This document shows positions 1,645 to 9,888 of a stretch of 33,435 nt of DNA, piece after piece. This DNA comes from an uncultured Flavobacteriales bacterium. Its GTDB lineage: Bacteria; Bacteroidota; Bacteroidia; Flavobacteriales_E; Vicingaceae. Made by a program: the position numbers and the translations under genes. The notes below the pieces were generated by a model. That model did not search any database. It was given only the letters and a program-made list of their open reading frames with translations, and was not told the origin of the DNA. The stretch covers positions 1-33,435 of the forward strand of contig CAJWVX010000017.1 of assembly GCA_913048175.1 (NCBI GenBank), read 5' to 3'. Each line of letters starts with the position of its first letter. Position 1 is the stretch's first letter.

Positions 1645-2949
1645 ATGAAAAAATTAGCATTACACTGGAAAATATTAATGGGAATGGTACTTGGAGTATT
1701 AGTTGCCCTTGCCTTAATTCAATTCTCTTGGGGTGCTGAATTTATTAAAGATTGGATTAAGCCTTTCGGAAAAATGTTTATCAATGCTTTAAAATTGATA
1801 GCTGTTCCTTTAATCTTAGCTTCTTTAATTAAAGGAGTTTCTGATTTAAAGGATATTTCTAAGCTTTCTAAAATGGGCGGAAGAACTATTCTAACTTATA
1901 TCATTACTACTGTATTTGCAGTTTCTATTGGTTTAGTTGTTGTAAACGTTATACAACCAGGTAAAAGTATTTCTATAGAAACAAGAACTCAATTATTGGA
2001 AGATTATAAAGGTGATGCTGAAAAAAGACAAGTTGCAGCATCAGCTCAAAAAGAAACAGGTCCTTTACAAGCTTTACAAGATTTAGTACCTAGCAATATA
2101 GTTTCTGCTGCTGGAGATAATGGAAACATGCTTCAAATCATTGTATTTGCTATTTTCTTTGGAGTTGGATTAATTCTAATTCCTGCAGACAAAGCCAAAC
2201 CAGTAAAAGGATTTTTTGATGGTTTTAATGAGGTTATTTTAAAGTTAATTGATTTAATAATGTTAGCGGCACCTTATGGTGTATTTGCTTTATTGGCCGC
2301 TTTGGTAGCAGAATCCCCAAGCCTTGATTTATTTCAAGCCTTATTATGGTACGCCTTTTCAGTTGTACTAGGATTAGCTTTAATGATTGGTATTTATGCG
2401 TTAATTGTAAAAGTTTTTACTAAAAAATCACCAAGCTTTTTCTTTAAAGGAATTGCCCCTGCCCAACTTTTAGCTTTCTCTACAAGTTCTAGTGCTGCGA
2501 CCTTACCTGTTACGATGGAACGCGTTGAAGAACACTTAGGTGTTGAAGAAGAAGTTGCCAGTTTTGTTTTACCAATTGGTGCAACTATTAATATGGATGG
2601 AACAAGTCTTTACCAAGCAGTTGCTGCAGTATTTATTGCTCAAGCTTTTGGAATGGACCTAACCATTGGAGCACAATTAGGCATAATTGTAACAGCTACC
2701 CTAGCCTCTATTGGCTCGGCTGCTGTTCCTGGAGCAGGAATGGTTATGTTAGTTATTGTTTTAGGTCAGGCTGGCATACCAGAAGCTGGATTAGCACTTA
2801 TTTTTGCAATTGATAGACCTTTAGATATGTGTAGAACTACAGTTAATGTTACTGGAGATGCTGCAGTATCTATGTTGATAGCAAAATCAGTTGGCAAATT
2901 AAGAGATCCAAAGCCTAAGAATTGGGATGATAATTACTTAGAGAGCTAA
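1645..2949 (+). CDS. Dicarboxylate/amino acid:cation symporter (DAACS family, GltP/DctA-like)
   Basis: Inner-membrane secondary transporter that couples uptake of glutamate/aspartate or C4-dicarboxylates to Na+ or H+. Its 434 residues fit the family. Diagnostic motifs are the serine-rich re-entrant loop AFSTSSSAATLPVT (about residues 278-291), NMDGTSLYQ (about 316-324) in TM7, and DRPLDMCRTTVNVTGDA (about 392-408) near the end. The conserved Arg in the last motif (DMCRT) is often linked to acidic amino-acid substrates, but I would not fix the substrate from that. A longer-than-usual polar loop with charged residues lies near residues 112-145. The gene is monocistronic by spacing. It is followed by a palindrome-rich intergenic region with a terminator-like hairpin. 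Confidence 0.95.
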   Translation: MKKLALHWKILMGMVLGVLVALALIQFSWGAEFIKDWIKPFGKMFINALKLIAVPLILASLIKGVSDLKDISKLSKMGGRTILTYIITTVFAVSIGLVVVNVIQPGKSISIETRTQLLEDYKGDAEKRQVAASAQKETGPLQALQDLVPSNIVSAAGDNGNMLQIIVFAIFFGVGLILIPADKAKPVKGFFDGFNEVILKLIDLIMLAAPYGVFALLAALVAESPSLDLFQALLWYAFSVVLGLALMIGIYALIVKVFTKKSPSFFFKGIAPAQLLAFSTSSSAATLPVTMERVEEHLGVEEEVASFVLPIGATINMDGTSLYQAVAAVFIAQAFGMDLTIGAQLGIIVTATLASIGSAAVPGAGMVMLVIVLGQAGIPEAGLALIFAIDRPLDMCRTTVNVTGDAAVSMLIAKSVGKLRDPKPKNWDDNYLES

Positions 2950-2996: not shown

Positions 2997-3101
2997 CGTC
3001 ATTGCGAAAATTATAAACGTTAGAGTTTTAATTTGAAGCAATCTCTTCTTTAAAATGAGATTGCTTCTTCACTCCTCTCAATTTGGTTCATCACAATGAC
3101 G
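2997..3101. repeat. Degenerate extragenic palindromic element with nested inverted repeats
   Basis: Outer arms CGTCATTG (2997-3004) and CAATGACG (3094-3101) are perfect complements. Inner arms GAAGCAATCTC (3035-3045) and GAGATTGCTTC (3057-3067) are an 11-bp perfect inverted repeat with an 11-nt loop. The nested design resembles the CGTCATTGCGA...GCAATCTC...GAGATTGC...CAATGACG elements I recall from intergenic regions of many bacterial genomes, including flavobacteria. This copy has diverged spacers. The inverted repeats are directly visible; the family assignment is from memory. Confidence 0.7.
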
Positions 3102-3123
3102 CATTACACTCTTTTTTTGCGTT

Positions 3124-3150
3124 AAGGATGGAAACGACATCCTTTTTTTT
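3124..3150 (+). terminator. Rho-independent terminator-like hairpin
   Basis: Stem AAGGATG (3124-3130) and CATCCTT (3138-3144) with loop GAAACGA, running into eight Ts at 3143-3150. It could end transcription from the symporter gene, although it sits about 175 bp beyond that stop codon. The same hairpin may be one arm of the larger element at 3119-3250. Confidence 0.6.
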
Positions 3151-3160
3151 ATTCAACTAA

Positions 3161-3207
3161 AATCCTCCAAGGTTTATTTGGATTGGCTAAATAAACCTTG
3201 GAGGATT
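3161..3207. repeat. 19-bp perfect inverted repeat
   Basis: The left arm at 3161-3179 starts AATCCTCCAAGG, and the right arm at 3189-3207 ends CCTTGGAGGATT. They are exact complements around a 9-nt centre (GGATTGGCT) that could close further by G-U and G-C pairs. This is the strongest short palindrome in the window and would form a very stable hairpin on either strand. It is not followed by a T-run, so it is not a canonical terminator. Confidence 0.9.
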
Positions 3208-3428
3208 GATAACTTGAAAAAAAGATATAGAGAACAGCCTTTAAAAACGCCCAAAACAATTATAACTAAACAATCGGGTTTATACAATATCAACCACTTT
3301 AATCAACCCTTAAGGGAAGAAAAAAATAGATATTAATGTTTATTAACAGCACAATAAATCCGTTAAAGTTTTGTTATTTTTAATTTCTGTAAATCAGAAC
3401 TAATACAACACATATTATACAATATATC

Positions 3429-6260
3429 ATGGTCAAAAAAATTCTTAAGTACTTCGGATTCACCCTTTTATTCTTAATTGCTTTAATTATACTACTTCCT
3501 ATTATTTTTAAAGGAAAAATTGTTGATCTCGTAAAAGAAGAAGCAAACAACAACTTAAATGCAAAAGTAGACTTTGGTGATTTTGGATTGAGCTTAATTA
3601 CTACGTTCCCAAACTTTGAATTTTCTATTGATAATGTTAAGGTTGATGGAGTTGATAAATTTGAAGGAACTCAATTAGCAAGCATTGGAAACCTTACACT
3701 TAAAGTAGATTTAATGAGTGTTATTAATGGTGATGAAATTAAAATGAAGACTTTAAGCATTTCTGACCTTACTGCTAATGCAATAGTTTTAGCTGACACT
3801 TCTGCTAACTGGGATGTTGCTAAAACAACTGATGAAGTTGAAGAAGTTGTTGTTGAAGAAGTAGATGCTGAACCATCGGCCTTTAAATTAGCTTTAAAAG
3901 ATTTATCTATTACTAACGCTAACATTACTTACGTTGATGAAACAATGGGTTTAGCAACAAGTATTAAAAACTTTAACTTCCATTTATCTGGAGATATGAC
4001 AGAGGATGTAACTGATTTGATTACAACCACTACAATTGAAGCCATTGATTTAGAAATGGAAAATGTTAAATACTTAAATCAAACAAAAATTGAAGTTGAT
4101 GCAACAATTAAAGCAGATTTAGCTAATAGTAAATACACTTTTACAGAAAATGAATTTAGAATTAATGAATTGATTTTAAACTTAGATGGTTGGTTAGCAC
4201 TATTTGAGGATAAGGATGACATAGATATGGATATTAAATTTGGTGCTAAAAAAACTGAATTTAAAACCTTATTATCTTTAGTTCCTGCTGTTTATATGAC
4301 CGATTTTGCTTCTGTTAAAACTGCCGGAAAAGTACAACTAGATGGTTATGCTAAAGGAATTTATAAAGAAACTTCTTTACCTGCTTTTGGTTTAGATTTA
4401 TTGGTTTCTGATGCAATGTTTAAATATCCTGATTTACCTAAAACGGTAAACAACATTAATATTGACTTACACATTGACAATCCTGGAGGAAGCGAAGACA
4501 ACACTTTTGTAAACCTTAAGAGATTCCACATGGAAGTGGCAGGAAACCCAATTGATATGCACATGCAGGTTAGGACTCCTGTTTCTGATGCTGATATTGA
4601 TGGTGGAATTAAAGCTAAATTCAACTTAGCATCTCTTAAGGATGTTGTACCCATGGAAACTGGTGATGAGATGAATGGAGACATTACTGCTGATATTACT
4701 CTAAAAGGAAAGGTTTCTGCTTTAGAGGAAGAACGTTATGAAGATTTTGATGCTCAAGGACAATTAGCAATTATGAATATGGATTACAAAAGTGATTCCC
4801 TACCCTACGATGTTTTGTTAAAGCAAATGGTATTAAATTTTTCTCCACAGTTTGTTGAGTTAGCTGCTTTCGAATCTCGAATCGGAAAATCTGATATAAG
4901 CGCTAATGGTAAAATGGAAAACTTTATTGCTTATGCTTTTGCTGATGATGAAGCTTTAAAGGGCCGATTTAACTTAAACTCTAACTTATTAGATTTAAAT
5001 GAGTTTATGGAAGAAGAAACTGAAGTTGTTGCAACTACTGAAGGAACAGTAACAGTTGATGAAGAACCATTAAGTGTTATTGAAGTACCTAAAAACATAG
5101 ATTTTGTATTGGCTTCATCTTTAAACAAAGTGGTTTATGATAATATGGATATAGACAATATTAAAGGTGAATTAGTAGTTAGAGATCAGAAAGTAAGTAT
5201 GAATGACTTGGCAATGAACCTGCTTGACGGGAGTATGGTAATGAATGGTTATTATGAAACTACGAATCCAAAATCTCCTGGATTTAATTATGATTTAGCA
5301 ATTAATAATTTTAATGTTCAAACAGTGGTAACCACTTTTAATACCATTGAAACAATGGCGCCTTATGCTAAAAATATGAAAGGAAGCTTTAATACTTCCT
5401 TAATAGTTAATGGAGTTTTAGATCATGAAATGATGCCTGATTTAAACACCTTAACTGGTGGTGGTGATATGGTAACTAAAAGCATAAAAGTTGAAGGACT
5501 TAAATCTTTAGATAAATTAGCAAGTGCTTTGAAGAATGATAAACTGAATAAGTTAGAATTAAAGGATGCTCACATAAAATACAGCTTTAAAGACGGTAGA
5601 GTTTACACAGAGCCTTTTGACATTGAAATGGGACCTGTAACCGGAACCATGTCTGGTTCTAATGGTTTTGATCAAACATTAGATAATCTAATGACTTTAA
5701 AAGTACCAAGTTCAGAATTAGGTGCTGGTGATGCGATGAACCAATTAAATGGTCAGGCTGGTAAATTAGGGATGGACTTAAAAGCTGCTGAGCACGTAAT
5801 GGTAGACGTTACTATTAAAGGAACTGTAGATGACCCTAAAGTTGGAATTAACTTAAAAGATGCAGTTGGCAACATTGTTGATGATGTTAAGAAACAAGTG
5901 ATAGAAAAAGTTAAAGAAAAAGTAGAAGAAGTTAAAGAAGATTTAAAAGGTAAAGCAAAAGAACAAGCAGATAAATTATTAGCTGAAGCTCAAAAACAAG
6001 CTAATAAAGTTAAGAATGAAGCTGAAAAAGCTGCTGATAAAGTAAGAGCTGAAGCAAAAAAACAAGTTGATTCTTTAAAAAATAAAGGTGGAAACTTTCT
6101 AGAGAAAAAAGCCAATGAGTTAGCGGCAAAACAAACTATAAAGCAAGGTGAAAAACAAGCTAAAAATGTTGAAGCTGAAGGAAATAAACAGGCGAATACA
6201 ATAATGAGTAAAGCTCAAAAGGAAGCTGACAAGTTAATGACTGAAGTTGATAAGAAGTAA
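3429..6260 (+). CDS. AsmA-family envelope protein with C-terminal amphipathic helical tail
   Basis: A 943-residue protein with one N-terminal membrane anchor (about residues 9-27, FGFTLLFLIALIILL). A long beta-rich body of the AsmA/DUF748 kind follows, including an early GDFGLSLITTFPNFEFSIDN segment near residue 50 and a repeated pattern of short strands. AsmA-like proteins anchor in the inner membrane, project into the periplasm, and have been linked to outer-membrane lipid homeostasis. Residues about 820-943 differ: they are highly charged, Ala/Lys/Glu-rich, with heptad or 11-mer-like repeats such as KAKEQADKLLAEAQKQANKV, predicting a long amphipathic helix or coiled coil. That tail is not part of the usual AsmA domain. 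The next gene starts 8 bp after the stop, so the two are probably co-transcribed. The family call is good; the tail's role is unknown. Confidence 0.85.
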   Translation: MVKKILKYFGFTLLFLIALIILLPIIFKGKIVDLVKEEANNNLNAKVDFGDFGLSLITTFPNFEFSIDNVKVDGVDKFEGTQLASIGNLTLKVDLMSVINGDEIKMKTLSISDLTANAIVLADTSANWDVAKTTDEVEEVVVEEVDAEPSAFKLALKDLSITNANITYVDETMGLATSIKNFNFHLSGDMTEDVTDLITTTTIEAIDLEMENVKYLNQTKIEVDATIKADLANSKYTFTENEFRINELILNLDGWLALFEDKDDIDMDIKFGAKKTEFKTLLSLVPAVYMTDFASVKTAGKVQLDGYAKGIYKETSLPAFGLDLLVSDAMFKYPDLPKTVNNINIDLHIDNPGGSEDNTFVNLKRFHMEVAGNPIDMHMQVRTPVSDADIDGGIKAKFNLASLKDVVPMETGDEMNGDITADITLKGKVSALEEERYEDFDAQGQLAIMNMDYKSDSLPYDVLLKQMVLNFSPQFVELAAFESRIGKSDISANGKMENFIAYAFADDEALKGRFNLNSNLLDLNEFMEEETEVVATTEGTVTVDEEPLSVIEVPKNIDFVLASSLNKVVYDNMDIDNIKGELVVRDQKVSMNDLAMNLLDGSMVMNGYYETTNPKSPGFNYDLAINNFNVQTVVTTFNTIETMAPYAKNMKGSFNTSLIVNGVLDHEMMPDLNTLTGGGDMVTKSIKVEGLKSLDKLASALKNDKLNKLELKDAHIKYSFKDGRVYTEPFDIEMGPVTGTMSGSNGFDQTLDNLMTLKVPSSELGAGDAMNQLNGQAGKLGMDLKAAEHVMVDVTIKGTVDDPKVGINLKDAVGNIVDDVKKQVIEKVKEKVEEVKEDLKGKAKEQADKLLAEAQKQANKVKNEAEKAADKVRAEAKKQVDSLKNKGGNFLEKKANELAAKQTIKQGEKQAKNVEAEGNKQANTIMSKAQKEADKLMTEVDKK

Positions 6261-8967: not shown

Positions 8968-9888
8968 ATGAAAAACATACTAGCCAAGATATTTTATCCA
9001 GTAATAGCAATTGCCTCACTTCTAGGTTTAATAAATAGTCCTCTAGCTCTATTTTCTGGTATCCTTTTCGCTTTCTTTTTTACTTCACCACTTAAAAAGT
9101 TTAGCCATAAACTGATTCATTATCTTCTTAAATTTTCTATAATTGGTTTAGGTTTTGGAATGCTAATTAAGGAAACCCTTACTACAAGTGCTAATAGTTT
9201 AAGTTTAACCTTCTTGTCTATTACTTTGACAATAGGATTAGGATTACTTTTAACTCGCTTATTAAAAATAGACCTCAAGCTAGGTTACCTCATTACATCA
9301 GGAACTTCAATTTGCGGGGGAAGTGCAATTGCAGCGATTTCATCCGTAATAAAGGCAAACGGTAAAACCATAAGTATTGCTTTAGGAGTTGTTTTCCTCT
9401 TAAACGCAATTGCCTTATTTACATTCCCTGTAATTGGACATTGGTTAGAATTAACCCAACATGATTTTGGCCTTTGGTGTGCAATTGCTATACACGATAC
9501 AAGTTCTGTAGTAGGAGCTGCTTTAAATTATGGTGATGAGGCTTTAAAAATTGCGACAACAGTAAAACTTTCAAGAACTTTATGGATTATACCATTGTCT
9601 ATTTTTTCCTTATTCGTTTTTAAAACTAAAGGGCAAAAAATTAAAATGCCTTACTTCATATTGTTATTTATTGCAGCAATAATTATAAATAGCTTTCACC
9701 TAATACCATTAACAATTACAAGCGTAATAGTTTTAATCTCAAAAAGGTTATTAGTACTTACCTTATTTATTGTTGGTACAACAATTTCATTTAAGGATTT
9801 AAAGTCAACAGGAATAAAACCAATACTCCTTGCAATCTTCTTATGGGTATTTATTTCAGTTTTCTCGTTGGTTTACATTACTTATTAG
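8968..9888 (+). CDS. YeiH/UPF0324-family membrane protein (putative sulfate exporter family)
   Basis: A 306-residue polytopic inner-membrane protein of about 9-10 hydrophobic segments, a little short for the family. The motif GTSICGGSAIAAISSVIKAN (about residues 112-131) and the later IHDTSSVVGAALNYGDEAL segment are hallmarks of the YeiH/Cons_hypoth698 family. Databases often label members putative sulfate exporters, but the substrate has little direct support. A sulfur gene cluster lies about 5 kb downstream on the other strand, which fits but does not prove a sulfur-related role. It converges on nupC with 24 bp between stop codons and no obvious terminator. The ATG start opens straight into a hydrophobic segment. 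Confidence 0.9.
   Translation: MKNILAKIFYPVIAIASLLGLINSPLALFSGILFAFFFTSPLKKFSHKLIHYLLKFSIIGLGFGMLIKETLTTSANSLSLTFLSITLTIGLGLLLTRLLKIDLKLGYLITSGTSICGGSAIAAISSVIKANGKTISIALGVVFLLNAIALFTFPVIGHWLELTQHDFGLWCAIAIHDTSSVVGAALNYGDEALKIATTVKLSRTLWIIPLSIFSLFVFKTKGQKIKMPYFILLFIAAIIINSFHLIPLTITSVIVLISKRLLVLTLFIVGTTISFKDLKSTGIKPILLAIFLWVFISVFSLVYITY

Follow-up and report, generated by a model that had tools for sequence, protein, structure and literature searches.

A divergent Flavo-1 element with an exchanged inner stem, flanked by genes for a dicarboxylate symporter and a presumed AsmA-like protein, in a Flavobacteriales bacterium

The intergenic segment at 3117-3253 of the window (the whole 33,435-nt stretch of DNA that was analysed) is almost certainly a member of the Flavo-1 family (Rfam RF01705). 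A permissive Rfam scan placed RF01705 on 3114-3248 with 35.1 bits (E = 2.8e-6), on the same strand and over the full length of the model (positions 1-76 of 76). Because this score falls below the curated gathering cut-off of 42 bits, a default Rfam scan of the window reported nothing. We gathered Flavo-1 copies by search and built two models, R1 from 24 same-genus copies and R2 from 78 copies in the records of other genomes; the copies of the window's own genome were excluded from R2. R2 gave a single match in the window, at 3117-3253 (59.4 bits, E = 1.2e-15); since R1, to which the window copy was already known, served to collect and align its sequences, R2 is independent in its sequences and not in its method. 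The preliminary description of this DNA had proposed a structured element with homologues elsewhere, and the matches in other genomes bear this out. Its suggestion of an undescribed RNA class does not hold, as Flavo-1 was published in 2010 (PMC2864571). A match to Streptococcus Srn266 (40.6 bits, cut-off 63) covers the element partially, runs outside it and was taken as chance.

The window copy is a divergent Flavo-1 with an exchanged inner stem. It resembles RF01705 in core sequence, arm-to-arm pairing, strand and phylum, but differs in its sub-cut-off score, in an apex of about 66 nt where the Rfam model has a short loop, and in a reduced side stem. Divergent members such as this one escape the default Rfam cut-off. 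The element overlaps no gene and lies between a sodium:dicarboxylate symporter gene and a 943-aa ORF (Table 1). The ORF had no match in a Pfam search; we take it to be a large AsmA-like gene. The preliminary description had stacked a hairpin with a T-run, a perfect stem-loop and a tract with bases pairing back to the start within 132 bp, and every one of these features is present with exact coordinates. The segment folds with -50.6 kcal/mol, compared with -23.8 (sd 3.4) in 200 dinucleotide shuffles, none of which folded as well (z = -7.8). Immediately upstream, at 2999-3105, the element is preceded by an imperfect inverted repeat (TCATTGCGA..GAAGCAATCTC..GAGATTGCTTC..CACAATGA).

Table 1. Coordinates of the Flavo-1 element, its parts and the neighbouring genes in the window
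Feature	Position	Strand	Basis or remark
Sodium:dicarboxylate symporter gene, left neighbour	1645..2949	+	
Whole Flavo-1 element (TT + P1 ... P1 + CCA)	3117..3253	+	Model R2 match; RF01705 match 3114-3248
P1 outer helix, 5' strand GCGTT	3119..3123	+	Complement AACGC 3246-3250; compensatory changes in relatives
P2 left arm: AGG, A.G mismatch, TG, GAA, AC, GAC, ATC, C	3125..3142	+	Alignment A1, pair counts
AGG of the left arm, pairing with CCT	3125..3127 / 3238..3240		
Alternative local hairpin GGATG / CATCC	3126..3142	+	Sequence (3126-3130 with 3138-3142); conserved, without covariation of its own
T-run (eight T), left side of inner P2 helix	3143..3150	+	Pairs with A-run
Variable P2 apex, about 66 nt, with 19-bp perfect stem	3151..3216	+	Sequence, fold; other own-genome copies differ
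19-bp perfect Watson-Crick stem in apex	3161..3179 / 3189..3207		Lengthened by one G.U and one G-C pair
CTCCAAGGTTTAT...ATAAACCTTGGAG palindrome within apex	3165..3203	.	Similar palindrome in or near copies of other loci
AAAAAAAGATATAG tract	3217..3230		
A-run + P2 right arm (AAAAAAAGATATAGAGAACAGCC)	3217..3239	+	Alignment A1, Flavo-1 consensus; one broken pair (A.A)
Side stem P3 position, here shrunk to TTTAAA	3240..3245	+	P3 12-60 nt, folded in many relatives
P1 outer helix, 3' strand AACGC, then CCCAAAA	3246..3250	+	Complement counts; conservation ends sharply
943-aa ORF, right neighbour	3429..6260	+	

Comparison of the copies points to a three-way junction made up of an outer stem (P1), a main stem with a variable apex (P2) and a side stem (P3). 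The two P2 arms pair in short helices with purine-rich internal loops between them. Double-sided changes occur in 12 of 18 arm pairs among the 24 same-genus copies (alignment A1) and in 15 of 18 among the 78 other-genus copies (alignment A2). No shuffle among 500 reached either value, and the signal was lost when the partner was slid by one base. A1 is the cleaner test because it was aligned by sequence alone, whereas A2 was fitted to the structure. The Rfam consensus leaves P1 and P3 unpaired or absent, unlike the fold found in the relatives here.

The outer helix shows the compensatory changes that the preliminary description had predicted. Among 103 elements starting with GCGTT, 99 carry AACGC and none carries CACGC, and 52 of 71 elements with a different P1 carry its own complement. 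The T-run and A-run likewise change together (TAAAAT with ATTTTA in L051, TTTAAT with ATTTAAA in L042). In contrast, no separate covariation was seen in related copies for the local GGAT/ATCC hairpin. The GGATG-CATCC hairpin with T-run of the preliminary description thus exists in the window, but the conserved partner of the T-run is the A-run. Imperfect pairs are more often G.U than A.C (27 versus 7 in A2, 10 versus 3 in A1), which identifies the + strand as the folding strand. The P3 site lies between the right arm and P1, and among the 97 such regions that reach 12 nt, 63 form a better fold than 95% of shuffles do. In the L164 copy, folding by energy alone returns exactly the inferred three-way junction. 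The ends of the element are sharp, with conservation stopping at TT|GCGTT and AACGC|CCAAA.

Two structural variants were seen among the copies. Copies from the marine Flavobacteriales bins JALTUD and JALWSJ have a long P3 hairpin, about 60 nt in length, whose sequence is mostly unrelated between copies (L098, L127, L131, L137, L141, L179, L184, L187, L190, L197). The inner P2 helix also has a subtype, with GGAAAGCCCACAG...CGAGGACTTG instead of GGCATCCTTTT...AAAAGATATA, that is found in both bacteria and phages (L044, L048, L138:321-410, L164:381-471, L256, L239, L454).

The apex of P2 varies far more than its arms. The shortest apex has 0 nt and the longest 98 nt, with a median of 20, and among the 88 apices that reach 20 nt, 43 form a better fold than 95% of shuffles do. 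Other copies in the window's own genome carry 5-80 nt of unrelated sequence at this position. A palindrome of the type TCGA-n-GCTCA recurs in eleven apices, and its signature was counted 12 times over 4.3 kb of apex sequence, compared with 4 times over 94 kb of flanks. We treat this enrichment as a lead, because the signature was picked after some apices had been inspected and a signature-free BLAST test of apex repeats against other loci was not significant (12/57 versus 7-11/57). A palindrome similar to the CTCCAAGG palindrome of the window lies in the apex of a Flavo-1 copy from another genome (L053), and similar ones lie within 150 nt of copies at L061 and L081.

Five orthologous loci that different species have in common show nearly constant arms, diverged flanks and a different apex. 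One pair has a TCGA-type palindrome versus the CTCCAAGG palindrome (L036/L053), another has apices of 8 nt versus 33 nt (L037/L045), and a third has 5 nt versus 61 nt (L014/L054). Judged from these alignments, the comparison shows that the arms have been kept while the apex was exchanged, in line with the constant frame around a variable central stem that had been proposed for the window segment. Three orthologous pairs have replaced GT..AC by AC..GT, so that two compensated pairs changed together, and this double compensation cannot be produced by inversion. Gene conversion between Flavo-1 copies is a possible source of the changes at orthologous loci. Retention with compensatory changes at five loci suggests that the element does something where it sits; a purely selfish element would have no need of such a role.

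We compared the locus of the window with that of four same-genus relatives in which the symporter gene and the next gene are adjacent. The spacing between these genes is 96-158 nt in the relatives versus 482 nt here, and Flavo-1 is missing from that intergenic region in all four. On the evidence of these sequences, Flavo-1 has been gained at this locus in this lineage. The inverted repeat at 2999-3105 is also missing from the shorter regions of the four relatives. We found no base-exact empty site, and around the own-genome copies no target-site duplication was visible, with no such empty site for comparison.

Flavo-1 copies are dispersed and patchy. The genome of the window has about nine further copies, four of them above the cut-off of 42. 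Within the family, 22 of 46 genomes contain Flavo-1. Under strict filters, 37 of 296 sampled genomes of the phylum have matches, with up to 16 per genome. Relatives were found in records of Flavobacteriales, Sphingobacteriales, Cytophagales and Bacteroidales, and a search of plasmid records gave no match. Orientation relative to neighbouring genes was (+,+) at 19, (-,-) at 20, (-,+) at 16 and (+,-) at 8 of 63 loci, a pattern that resembles other intergenic regions and in which none is preferred. Dedicated promoters of the Bacteroidota type were no more frequent upstream of Flavo-1 than expected.

Certain copies sit beside rRNA or phage genes in a fixed orientation. In three genomes, Flavo-1 lies 96-330 nt behind a 5S rRNA gene, on the same strand in all five cases, so these elements are copied along with the rRNA operon. 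The loci (L542, L545, L546, L553, L554) include several rRNA operons of one genome. Among tailed-phage contigs from IMG/VR, about 19 distinct terminase genes have Flavo-1 directly at their 3' end and always on the opposite strand. These large-subunit loci are L219, L224, L225, L220, L253, L254, L247, L242, L256 and L241, with further ones at L239, L303, L245, L252, L233, L383, L454, L407 and L456. The flanked terminases are 24-60% identical to each other and have intact ATPase motifs; an alignment of 14 of them was too diverse as a query, and sub-alignments were used instead. Unbiased searches that began from terminases covered 160 loci, and at only 10 of them could R1 detect a Flavo-1; many of the other loci inspected have an ordinary hairpin terminator in its place. 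The terminase link is thus one of position and orientation, and Flavo-1 is not a constant phage part. By our reading, a cos-like motif often follows the terminase-side copies. In the single-stranded DNA microvirus OM869667.1, Flavo-1 lies between the last small gene and the replication gene; this Flavo-1-like copy (L217:4295-4395), upstream of the replication gene, has an altered inner helix.

Flavo-1 was originally described as a likely RNA that is not cis-regulatory, and no function was assigned to it (Weinberg et al. 2010, PMC2864571). Matches in Flavobacterium psychrophilum were reported indistinctly in sense and antisense, many of them outside transcribed regions, with no functional clue (PMC9723704). 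A 2022 review lists Flavo-1 among the most abundant small RNA families of bacteria and does not give its function (PMC9029176). In the open-access literature we found no description of P1 or P3, of the exchange of apices, or of copies in phages and behind rRNA genes. The revised P1, P3 and apex, together with the orthologous loci and these contexts, make Flavo-1 function testable at defined loci.

We compared Flavo-1 to known mobile and folded DNA elements. Like REP/BIME and MITE sequences, it is short, dispersed, intergenic, palindromic, multi-copy, patchy and gene-less, and it occurs in either orientation. It differs from them in its long three-way fold with conserved internal loops and in its compensatory changes at fixed loci. 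It also lacks the GTAG foot (GT[AG]G is absent at the foot of the hairpin, and most copies have the 5' end TTGCGTT), has no Y1 gene nearby, and no target duplication was seen. Integron attC sites share with Flavo-1 a constant paired frame, a variable terminal structure and a folded single strand. However, Flavo-1 has GTT at the 5' side and AAC at the 3' side, the reverse of attC, and its copies are isolated, without cassette arrays. The attC boxes 5' RYYYAAC and 3' GTTRRRY are absent on either strand, where Flavo-1 has GTTARGG 5' and AAC 3'.

We propose that Flavo-1 is a dispersed REP-like element that acts as a folded single strand, a mobile mechanism to which we give slightly less than an even chance. 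The joint explanation, in which the identity as Flavo-1 is combined with this mechanism, is in our estimate evenly poised and the best account of the whole. Flavo-1 would have inserted between the symporter gene and the AsmA-like gene in this lineage. Sequence comparison shows a + strand made for folding back on itself into P1, a long P2 whose internal loops are rich in GA and whose apex varies and, in most relatives, a variable P3. The folded single strand, be it RNA or DNA, would be recognized by a putative protein at P1 and at the P2 internal loops. The apex and P3 would be tolerated and dispensable spacers and could serve as a landing place for other dispersed palindromes. The element would spread like a REP or MITE, as a non-autonomous unit, and would also be carried along by phages and larger mobile elements; it may be kept once inserted because the fold still does something. 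A mobile, non-autonomous element is favored by the dispersal without regard to gene orientation, the sharp ends, the recent gain, the subfamilies specific to lineages and the copies in phages. A recognized fold is favored by the conserved internal loops and by the covariation seen within fixed loci. The fixed antisense orientation beside terminases is left unaccounted for by the mobile folded strand and counts against it. Still more tentatively, and with some doubt, Flavo-1 might represent a new sort of mobile unit, a three-way-junction strand with fixed P1 and GA-loop arms, two of three stems exchangeable and a putative protein recognizer, common to chromosomes, rRNA operon ends and phages.

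A mobilizing enzyme could come from the Y1 (RAYT) transposases, with Flavo-1 as their cognate REP. This is a very unlikely arrangement, even though REPs are also dispersed imperfect hairpins and the Bacteroidetes-specific subclass 2.6 has atypical REPs, structures that flank its genes and are copied elsewhere in the genome (PMC6006769). We tested 40 Y1 genes (208 kb) and found no Flavo-1 within about 3 kb of any of them, and the GTAG foot is absent. Y1 gene presence tracks Flavo-1 weakly (16 of 22 genomes with Flavo-1 versus 10 of 24 without). Y1 transposases were therefore rejected as the mobilizer on the basis of these loci, and no other mobilizing enzyme was found. That the segment consists of chance palindromes, or of nested repeats that are unrelated and share no common element, has a negligible probability. 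The region does hold a second inverted repeat (2999-3105), and the four relatives lack both, but the R2 model from other genomes (E about 1e-15) refutes this explanation and the fold z-score of -7.8 argues against it as well.

Alternatively, Flavo-1 may act as RNA: transcription through it would yield a genuine small RNA or a cis-acting module, which would bind a protein through its internal loops, and its dispersal would be incidental. We consider this possible and on the unlikely side. Arm-to-arm covariation, the one-strand G.U preference, the compensatory changes at orthologous loci and the five sense positions behind 5S rRNA all favor an RNA, as does the classification by Rfam and the discovery paper as a likely RNA that is not cis-regulatory (PMC2864571). 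The missing promoter excess and the lack of a preferred gene orientation speak against it, as do the F. psychrophilum matches in sense or antisense, many outside transcribed regions (PMC9723704). A terminator in which the GGATG/CATCC hairpin and T-run stop + strand transcription is improbable. The window does have a 7-bp hairpin (AAGGATG/CATCCTT) followed by a T run. However, this local hairpin lacks covariation, the T-run is swapped for TAAAAT and similar sequences where the A-run co-changes, orientation to the upstream gene is random, and beside phage terminase genes the element is always antisense. The choice left by the preliminary description between a structured RNA and a mobile palindromic element was a fair wording for the segment.

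Some copies belong to larger repeated surroundings. In several copies from JALTUD and JALWSJ, the repeat reaches about 100 nt beyond Flavo-1 on its upstream side. Near the ends of one viral contig, two Flavo-1 copies lie in opposite orientation about 8.5 kb apart (L238:441-538 and 9041-9140). At eight loci (L063, L064, L065, L067, L070, L072, L083, L084), Flavo-1 forms the end of a block that measures about 320 bp and contains several palindromes. This block is common to several genera, lies in places beside cargo-like genes and could be one terminus of an integrative element.
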